Below, piece after piece: positions 34,545 through 35,757 of a stretch of 35,983 nt of DNA. The translations under genes were made by a program, and so were the position numbers. The notes beneath the pieces were generated by a model. It was given only the letters and a program-made list of their open reading frames with translations. It did not search any database and was not told the origin of the DNA. Each line of letters starts with the position of its first letter. Position 1 is the stretch's first letter. The DNA is taken from NCBI GenBank assembly GCA_016213775.1, contig JACQZR010000151.1, positions 1-35,983 on the forward strand, written 5' to 3'. This DNA is from Acidobacteriota bacterium. GTDB taxonomy: Bacteria > Acidobacteriota > Terriglobia > Bryobacterales > Bryobacteraceae.

Positions 34545-34576
34545 TTGGGCTTGGCTCTTGAAAGGCATCCAGAAAT

Positions 34577-34700
34577 GAGGAGGCCCCGGAGCTGGGAACT
34601 TCGGGGCCTTGAGGGGCTAAATACGGCGGGCTGGGTCCCGCCGTCGAGGATGCTGATAAGTCAAATGATGACTTACGAATTGTCCTTTATAGTGCATGCG
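34577..34700 (+). ncRNA. Structured repeat RNA candidate, copy 1
   Basis: Three hairpins. H1: 34581-34591 with 34599-34609, loop CTGGGAA. H2: 34623-34630 with 34637-34644, loop CTGGGT. H3: TAAGTCA (34657-34663) with TGACTTA (34669-34675), loop AATGA. Conserved unpaired links are GAGGGGCTA before H2 and CGAGGATGCTGA before H3. A GTCCTTTATAGTGCATGC tail follows. H1 uses C-G where copy 3 uses T-A; H2 has GGG/CCC where the others have GAG/CTC. The strand is chosen so the structure lies downstream of the terminator and reads like the other copies, but it is not proven. Confidence 0.6.
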
Positions 34701-34830
34701 GGTGGCCAAAGCGGATCACCTGTAAGTTGTTGAAAAACCGTAGCGGAGCGATGGGTTCGTGGGGCAAATGGCACGTACTATGAGATTTCGGCTCACCCAG
34801 GTTCCCCCACATCCGTTGGGGCGGTACCAA

Positions 34831-34957
34831 AAGAGGAAGGCCCTGGGAGCTGGGACTCTCAGGGCCTTTGAGGGGCTATGAACGGCGAGCTGGGTCTCGC
34901 CGCCGAGGATGCTGATAAGTCAATGATGACTTACGAATTGTCCTTTATAGTGCATGC
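34831..34957 (+). ncRNA. Structured repeat RNA candidate, copy 2
   Basis: H1: 34837-34849 with 34856-34868, loop CTGGGA. H2: CGGCGAG (34883-34889) with CTCGCCG (34896-34902), loop CTGGGT. H3: TAAGTCA (34916-34922) with TGACTTA (34927-34933), loop ATGA. Same links (GAGGGGCTATGA, CGAGGATGCTGA) and the same GTCCTTTATAGTGCATGC tail as copy 1. It lies about 180 nt upstream of the small membrane protein gene. Confidence 0.6.
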
Positions 34958-35137
34958 ACGGTGCCAAACGGAAAGCGAGCTAAACTGTGGGAAATCACAA
35001 CGAGAACAAGGCTTTGCGGGCAAACGGAGGGCGCCGGACAATGCGACTTGGGGCATCTCCCCCGAAATGGTTCCCCACCCCTAGGCGAGGTTACCCAATC
35101 GGGCGCAGTTGGCGACTTTCGTGCACTCTCCGGGCGC

Positions 35138-35500
35138 ATGACGTTCGAAAAACGATCACTCGGACTTGCGGTACTCAGTTGGGCACTCGCTTTTGCCGTT
35201 TCCTTTCTTTTGTTCCCCATCAAAGCATCAAACGCGCCGCTGTTCGACGCGGTGATGAATCTTGTGGTGTTGCTGGTGGCCGGGGTGGTGATGCGGCTGT
35301 ACTTCCGGTGGAAGCCGGTGAGTATTAGTTCGGCAATCCAGTTTGGGCTGACGTGCCTGGCGGCGAACCTGATTTTGGACTACCCGATGTTCGCCTACGG
35401 GCCGATGAAGATGACGGCGGGGCAGTACTACTCTGAAATTGGGATCGCGTATCTGATCTATCCGATTTTTGGATGGTGGGCGAGCCGAATGGGGCGGTAG
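35138..35500 (+). CDS. Small integral membrane protein of unknown function
   Basis: A 120-residue protein with four predicted membrane segments (about 9-27, 35-53, 62-82, 97-115) and short loops. Charged residues are few: FEKR at the start, YFRWK between helices 2 and 3, SRMGR at the end. I recognise no family. The ATG at 35138 gives the first hydrophobic segment its proper place; a longer frame from 34961 would add a stretch with unlike composition, and no Shine-Dalgarno sequence supports it. It is flanked on both sides by copies of the structured repeat RNA, so the repeat may regulate it or merely bracket it. Confidence 0.6.
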   Translation: MTFEKRSLGLAVLSWALAFAVSFLLFPIKASNAPLFDAVMNLVVLLVAGVVMRLYFRWKPVSISSAIQFGLTCLAANLILDYPMFAYGPMKMTAGQYYSEIGIAYLIYPIFGWWASRMGR

Positions 35501-35522
35501 GCAGGGAGAAGGTGTCTAAACG

Positions 35523-35650
35523 TGAGAAGGCCCTGGAGCTGGGAACTCCAGGGCCTGTAGAGGGGCTATGAACGGCGAGCTGGGCCTCGCCGCCGAGGAT
35601 GCTGATAAGTCGATGACGACTTAAGTAAGTGCCTATATAAAATGCACCCC
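35523..35650 (+). ncRNA. Structured repeat RNA candidate, copy 3
   Basis: H1: AGGCCCTGGAG (35528-35538) with CTCCAGGGCCT (35546-35556), loop CTGGGAA. H2: CGGCGAG (35573-35579) with CTCGCCG (35586-35592), loop CTGGGC. H3: TAAGTCG (35606-35612) with CGACTTA (35617-35623), loop ATGA. Relative to copies 1 and 2, H3 has G-C in place of A-T, which keeps pairing. The tail has TATAAAATGCA. A further TAAGTTATTGAAAA box lies at 35674-35687, matching copy 1. Confidence 0.6.
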
Positions 35651-35757
35651 GACTGCCATGGGAGACTGTTCCCTAAGTTATTGAAAACACGTGATCGCGC
35701 TCAGACAGTAGTGGGGTATATGCCCCTGCTTGCGCCATATCCCCCAGATTATTACGC

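Follow-up and report, generated by a model that had tools for sequence, protein, structure and literature searches.

Three tandem copies of a structured element in a Bryobacteraceae genome: candidate sigma54-dependent small RNA genes related to Acido-1

What kind of element is repeated three times in a 35,983-nt stretch of acidobacterial DNA, and which strand carries its product? The stretch, hereafter the window (contig JACQZR010000151.1 of assembly GCA_016213775.1), had been described in an initial annotation as holding three structured, RNA-like copies read on the plus strand. Our analysis of the DNA makes it probable that the copies are three sibling genes for trans-acting small RNAs (sRNAs) encoded by the minus strand, each about 110 nt long, transcribed from a sigma54 promoter under an enhancer-binding protein (EBP), terminated by hairpin H1, acting by pairing with mRNA together with Hfq, and belonging to a family that includes the Acido-1 motif (Rfam RF01686).

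Copies, structure and distribution

The window contains three in-register copies of about 115 nt each (34577-34690, 34836-34949 and 35526-35639), which bears out the threefold repeat seen earlier. In blastn alignments with copy 2, identity is 87% for copy 1 and 89% for copy 3; the ungapped in-register identities are lower (61% and 80%) because of indels. A blastn search of the 10.96-Mb own genome at E ≤ 0.01 returned no copies beyond these three, and a covariance model (R1), trained on 29 copies in minus-type orientation and modelling just five H1 pairs, recovered the same three copies and no more.

The three hairpins of the initial annotation (H1, H2 and H3) are present in constant order in every copy. 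Read 5' to 3' on the minus strand, each window copy begins with TGG-N10-GC and a TAAGTCnTCATnGACTTA-type hairpin; the linker GCATCC then leads to H2, whose loop is CCCAG, and the linker AGCCCCTC to H1, whose loop contains CCCAG and which is followed by a T-tract (Table 1). The shared loop sequence CTGGG pointed out earlier is correct on the plus strand; the minus strand reads CCCAG. Two features had gone without mention: a conserved promoter with upstream sites past the H3 side, and the minus-strand T-tract past H1.

Table 1. Features of the three copies and their upstream regions in the window. The predicted sRNA limits place the start 12 nt past the C of the -12 element and the end at the T-tract.
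Feature	Position	Strand	Basis
Predicted sRNA, copy 1 (110 nt)	34573..34682	-	R1 86.1 bits (copy in training set); fold z -6.75
5' hairpin, copy 1	34656-34676	-	
H2, copy 1	34623-34644	-	
H1 (terminator-like), copy 1	34581-34609	-	
Sigma54-type -24/-12 element, copy 1 (TGG-N10-GC)	34694..34708	-	sequence pattern
AT-rich conserved element TTTTCAACAACTTA, upstream of copy 1	34723..34736	-	sequence conservation
Upstream palindrome, copy 1 (sole one above 7 bits for this copy)	34760..34775	.	matrix, 12.2 bits
Predicted sRNA, copy 2 (112 nt)	34829..34940	-	R1 85.9 bits (copy in training set); fold z -6.51
5' hairpin, copy 2	34915-34934	-	
H2, copy 2	34881-34904	-	
H1, copy 2	34837-34868	-	
Sigma54-type -24/-12 element, copy 2 (TTTGGCAC-N6-TGCA)	34952..34966	-	sequence pattern
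Upstream palindrome, copy 2	35049..35064	.	matrix, 13.1 bits
Weaker palindrome matches, copy 2	starts 131 and 35 nt upstream of the -24 element		
Predicted sRNA, copy 3 (115 nt)	35518..35632	-	R1 88.3 bits (copy in training set); fold z -5.68
5' hairpin, copy 3	35606-35623	-	
H2, copy 3	35571-35594	-	
H1, copy 3	35528-35556	-	
Sigma54-type -24/-12 element, copy 3	35644..35658	-	sequence pattern
AT-rich conserved element TTTTCAATAACTTA, upstream of copy 3	35674..35687	-	sequence conservation
Palindrome pair, copy 3 (span 35712..35746)	35712-35727; 35731-35746	.	matrix, 13.0 and 17.3 bits

The compensated stem changes reported among the three copies are present in the sequence and extend to homologues. 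We compiled 114 copies (111 distinct rows) from 77 loci, the best and most diverse among the matches listed, and in an alignment fitted to R1, which covers five H1 pairs and leaves H3 out, two-sided changes occurred in 12 of the 13 modelled H1 and H2 pairs. Paired cells amounted to 95.5%, compared with 84.6% in shuffles, none of 500 of which reached the observed value, and with 41–50% when the partners were slid; this covariation supports the earlier proposal of selection on RNA structure. At one H2 pair, 44 rows have A-C, which is a constant feature of the loop AGUCCCCUCC as found in the canonical Acido-1 type. Folded with their flanks, the copies gave z-scores of -4.9 to -6.0 on the minus strand and -3.1 to -3.7 on the plus strand, while in absolute fold stability the plus strand of copies 1 and 2 with flanks is the more stable one.

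R1 matched 101 of 200 genomes of the family at E ≤ 0.01 (66 of 140 good-quality genomes; 46 of the 76 genera sampled) and, at E ≤ 1e-4, 3 of 396 genomes sampled across the phylum, namely the own genome and two weak ones, both scans having been run with stricter filters under which weak matches are lost. The matches in the window and in two further genomes, G012 and G031, are not independent, because those copies were in the training set. Both weak matches, L144 (G485) with 33.7 bits and L145 (G365) with 30.4 bits, lie outside the family. Within the genus, DNA similarity reveals the element in 11 of the 12 genomes, counting the own genome. A pattern scan of named genomes yielded 26 stretches, which carry the label Bryobacteraceae, Bryobacterales, Solibacteraceae or Acidobacteriales or, with no lower rank, Acidobacteria/Acidobacteriota.

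Promoter patterns, T-tracts and the choice of strand

We scanned up to 85 nt upstream of the 114 copies on the minus-type strand and derived expectations by base shuffling. The sigma54 pattern TGG-N10-GC precedes 49 copies (3.2 expected) and the sigma70-type pattern TnGACA-N15-19-TAnnnT precedes 46 (0.71 expected); one copy has both types and 20 have neither. The other strand of the same upstream stretches holds 5 sigma54 and no sigma70 patterns across the 114 copies. Upstream of the copies as oriented in Rfam (70–75 nt examined), the bare TGG-N10-GC was found in 16 of 114 and the sigma70-type pattern in none. Scored against the 12-position sigma54 consensus, sites agreeing at nine or more positions occur at 40 of 114 copies; the Rfam side has such sites at 2 of 114, and a single shuffle had none at 114. 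The consensus of the sigma54-type copies is TTTGGCAC-N6-TGCA, and its fit extends to positions outside those used for selection: T before GC (48/49), A after GC (39/49), and C and A after TGG (39/49 and 42/49).

The two promoter types are unevenly spread among genera. All 23 copies from the own genus are of the sigma54 type, and the three window copies have the -24/-12 element at a fixed distance; among 91 copies from other genera, 25 are of the sigma54 type, 45 of the sigma70 type, one has both and 20 have neither. The spacer of the sigma70-type promoters is 17 nt in 44 of 45 cases, with an extended -10 element (TGnTAnTnT), and 13 of the 18 unclassified copies with enough upstream sequence (20 in all) show a -10 box with at least five of six positions (3.9 expected). 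The own genome carries one rpoN. In two mixed arrays, L117 (G132) and L120 (G201), a sigma54-type copy adjoins a copy with a sigma70-like -10 box, suggesting that promoter types may have been exchanged while the RNA was kept.

At the opposite end of the copies, a run of at least four T residues lies within 16 nt past H1 in 62 of 114 copies, and on the Rfam strand such runs are found past H2 in 0 of 114 and past H3 in 5 of 114, counted in stretches at fixed, approximate places. A cruder T count gave 97 of 113 past H1 versus 53 of 110 past H2 on the Rfam strand. Within the window, the tract is TTTT in copy 2 and just TTT in copies 1 and 3. H1 with its T-tract thus provides the intrinsic-terminator pattern that goes with the sigma54-dependent kind of sRNA.

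Because the promoter patterns and the T-tracts are on the minus strand, we assign the RNA to that strand, which in our judgement is probably correct and runs opposite to both the initial annotation and the Rfam model. Wobble pairs do not confirm this choice. When an RNA constraint acts on one strand only, G-U pairs are expected mostly on that strand; in a strand-symmetric search over distinct stems, with loop-proximal pairs skipped, G-U was kept solely on the minus-type strand in 10 H1 and 8 H2 stems and solely on the Rfam strand in 17 and 11, and with loop-proximal pairs included the ratios were 24:25 for H1 and 9:26 for H2. Fixed-register counts (6:0, 14:9 and 9:6, minus-type to Rfam strand) are noisy, and a count of 47:2 is biased and was disregarded because its structure had been chosen on the minus-type strand. 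The wobble excess, together with the orientation in which Rfam models Acido-1, would fit a functional plus-strand RNA, or the transcription and use of both strands; we nevertheless consider this unlikely, given the near absence of sigma70-type promoters, good sigma54 sites and T-runs at the corresponding places on that strand.

The strand also bears on the suspected binding partner. A CsrA-type protein had been guessed to bind the loop GGA and the linker AGGATG, but the promoter-bearing strand reads UCC and CAUCC there, with CCCAG in the loops; on the strand assigned here the CsrA idea is not supported, and a plus-strand RNA with CsrA-type loops was set aside on account of the promoters and T-tracts.

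Upstream palindromes and genomic setting

A palindrome, TGGGnGATATCnCCCA, was found upstream of 41 non-redundant sigma54 promoters with a log-likelihood of 300, compared with 26.0 and 27.5 for two shuffled sets. With a matrix trained on these same promoters and a threshold of 7 bits, at least one site was present at 48 of 49 sigma54 promoters and at least two at 42 of 49, and 87 of 109 sites start 60–105 nt upstream of the -24 element. The background is 0.12 per 150 nt, and the palindrome is present at 6 of 45 sigma70-type and 3 of 20 unclassified copies. When the matrix was built from 26 promoters of other genera instead, 22 of 23 own-genus promoters still had a site, versus 10% of shuffles. 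Upstream palindromes of this kind are typical of an enhancer-binding protein, suggesting that they are candidate activator sites.

The own genome has 31 matches to PF00158, 26 of them above 160 bits; since PF00158 also matched in 14 of 14 control genomes, only the stronger matches are taken to mean activators. The locus and its genome therefore offer both the activator sites (palindromes) and the activator genes (the stronger PF00158 matches) that belong to a sigma54-dependent sRNA. A tblastn search with three own-genome activators against 39 array regions found an activator gene in one region only, at the edge of L217.

The own genus additionally shares TTTTCAAnnACTTA-like DNA upstream of the RNAs; its commonest spaced pair is seen at 15 of 49 promoters and at no more than 5 in shuffles. 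We presume that this DNA and the AT-rich elements of copies 1 and 3 (Table 1) are IHF-site-like, and IHF binding is our guess.

Scanning the own genome for TTTGGCAY-N6-TGCA gave 12 matches, compared with 2 in a reversed control. One of them, L231 (G000:C215:15470, plus strand), is a further sigma54-type promoter that shares the palindromes of the RNAs and lies in a gap flanked by an ORF of 445 aa and a sulfatase-like one. Searching 11 congeners for its 521-base region gave no match, so L231 did not reveal the regulon. Elsewhere in the genome, three sigma54-type promoters (L226-L228; G000:C60, 19831, 21637 and 22325, minus strand) are clustered inside 2.5 kb; each precedes a small ORF, the ORFs having similar starts, and each has another type of upstream palindrome, TAACCGnnCGGTTA, which suggests a different activator and a paralogous gene set.

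We examined the context of the arrays in the 39 regions, counting ORFs rather than annotated genes; a duplicate array and three arrays without a downstream ORF were removed, leaving 35. The next downstream ORF of at least 130 aa is convergent in 22 of these distinct arrays, the window's included, whereas in 13 it shares the strand of the array; overlap with an ORF of this size was seen for four distinct arrays. As far as ORF orientation indicates, most arrays are not leaders. A cis-acting element, that is, a leader or terminator region of a neighbouring gene, would suit the 13 same-strand cases, yet we regard it as very unlikely in view of the convergent majority and of the fact that every array copy has its own promoter pattern and its own hairpin with a T-tract. 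Between copies 2 and 3 of the window lies a small membrane-protein-like ORF (35138-35497, plus strand), antisense to the direction of the RNA and without a Pfam match.

Palindromic hairpins, tandem copies and near-symmetric wobble counts could equally be features of a mobile or repeat element (MITE- or REP-like) with palindromes acting as DNA. This we hold to be highly improbable: the 11-Mb genome has three copies in a single place, two kinds of promoter pattern are conserved at fixed distances, and the Pfam matches of nine neighbour proteins scanned include no transposase-type family. Confinement of homologues to transposon ends, which the initial annotation had raised as a counter-indication, does not agree with one place in this genome and an occurrence across most of the genera sampled.

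A nitrogen signal was considered because glnE adjoins the RNA in the genus. The gene lies near the RNA, in divergent orientation, at 10 of 11 congeneric loci (10 genomes); in seven of them no other conserved gene is nearer on that side, and in three an ORF intervenes. The window's genome is different: its glnE sits on a separate contig, where 6 kb of sequence on its upstream side holds none of the three RNA copies, and a different ORF adjoins the array. In genomes of other genera, glnE does not neighbour any of the RNA places listed: it lies on a separate contig or, in G062, about 200 kb off. Palindrome matches do occur among the 17 amtB loci scanned, and those upstream of amtB that were examined (in 11 of the 17 loci) are inside conserved coding-looking DNA; no sigma54 promoter was seen before amtB in these loci. 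Nitrogen control is thus unsupported beyond the glnE synteny in the genus. A conserved AT-rich motif of the type ATAGAAAnnnGTAATCnnnCCGATAGAAAnnnTTTTCTTGT lies just upstream of amtB in several family genomes (L188, L191, L194, L195, L197 and L198).

Acido-1, a proposed mechanism and known parallels

At Rfam cut-offs, a scan of the whole window gave no matches. With a relaxed threshold, Infernal aligned RF01686 over its full length to all three copies (model positions 1-64 of 64, both hairpins and the linker), with scores of 30.1, 26.1 and 19.7 bits that do not reach the gathering cut-off of 50. The window copies are remote relatives of Acido-1 and not members by score; of the possible match suggested earlier, the kinship stands on the end-to-end alignment, and membership fails at the cut-off. 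Acido-Lenti-1 (RF01687), the other acidobacterial motif named at the time, is absent among the region's Rfam matches at E ≤ 5.

A search of 61 related genomes with RF01686 gave a match at E ≤ 1 in 31, although the weak matches are partly noise, as 4 of 14 control genomes also match at this threshold. Two genomes exceeded the cut-off, and the scores (84.5, 77.6, 75.8, 74.3, 48, 45, 44.4, 43.6, 40.9, 40.6 and lower) run without a gap between the over-cut-off copies and the window-like copies. For the own genome, copy 1 and a place on a different contig appeared among these matches, whereas copies 2 and 3 did not. At the over-cut-off copies in G031 and G012, RF01686 and R1 match the same places on opposite strands.

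Weinberg et al. 2010 (PMC2864571) describe Acido-1 as a probable RNA that is probably not cis-regulatory, and in the literature searched neither Acido-1 nor RF01686 is named anywhere else. Acido-1 and the window copies share two hairpins in the same order, loops and a linker that are C-rich on the RNA strand, the bacterial family, and tandem copies, which are present in both over-cut-off genomes. They differ in that the window copies have an additional 5' hairpin and a sigma54-type promoter, whereas the promoter of the four over-cut-off copies (in G031 and G012) is of the sigma70 type. In both, the transcription signals are on the strand opposite to the Rfam model. A larger Bryobacteraceae family that includes Acido-1, with the Rfam model describing the complementary strand, is part of the explanation that we consider probable. 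The analysis adds to Acido-1 the strand assignment, predicted boundaries of the genes, the 5' hairpin, a class of copies with sigma54 promoters and activator sites, and the wide occurrence in the family.

As a working model, a signal would act through an enhancer-binding protein at the upstream palindromes, upon which sigma54 polymerase would transcribe the three copies, each from its own promoter, and each sRNA would end at its own intrinsic terminator, H1. The RNA would expose C-rich segments, namely CCCAG in the two main loops and the linkers AGCCCCUC and GCAUCC. These loops and linkers resemble the anti-Shine-Dalgarno sequence, and the segments would most likely pair with the G-rich ribosome-binding sites of target mRNAs, helped by Hfq, which is present in 14 of 14 genomes tested. 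The initial annotation had one ligand or protein contacting both loops; for C-rich loops on a separately promoted RNA, we infer that base pairing with mRNA is the better fit.

A more specific version, towards which we lean slightly, holds that Acido-1 is on the wrong strand in Rfam and represents one branch of a Bryobacteraceae-wide family of sibling sRNAs in which sigma70 and sigma54 promoters have been exchanged with the RNA kept, and that in the own genus one enhancer-binding protein drives one to three redundant copies simultaneously, amounting to a Qrr-like switch in Acidobacteriota. An Rfam family without an assigned function gains a testable gene model here, with a strand, a start, an end, a promoter class and an activator site. 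If the proposal is true, annotation based on Acido-1 names the wrong transcript and target searches that start from it seek the wrong pairing, and Acidobacteriota would have a defined sigma54-controlled sRNA regulon.

The proposed arrangement has parallels among characterized sRNAs. The Qrr sRNAs of Vibrio are likewise several near-identical siblings that depend on sigma54 and an enhancer-binding protein (PMC4211561, PMC10162802); the qrr genes lie apart, whereas the window copies are in tandem, and the likeness is one of gene layout, with no homology claimed. GlmY and GlmZ of E. coli are sibling sRNAs under sigma54 (PMC4211561, PMC6075780), in other bacteria and with another genetic layout, so that here too the likeness is one of kind and not of homology. 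According to a title in the reference list of PMC4211561, GlmY has overlapping sigma54 and sigma70 promoters, which provides a precedent for the two promoter types found in the present sRNA family.
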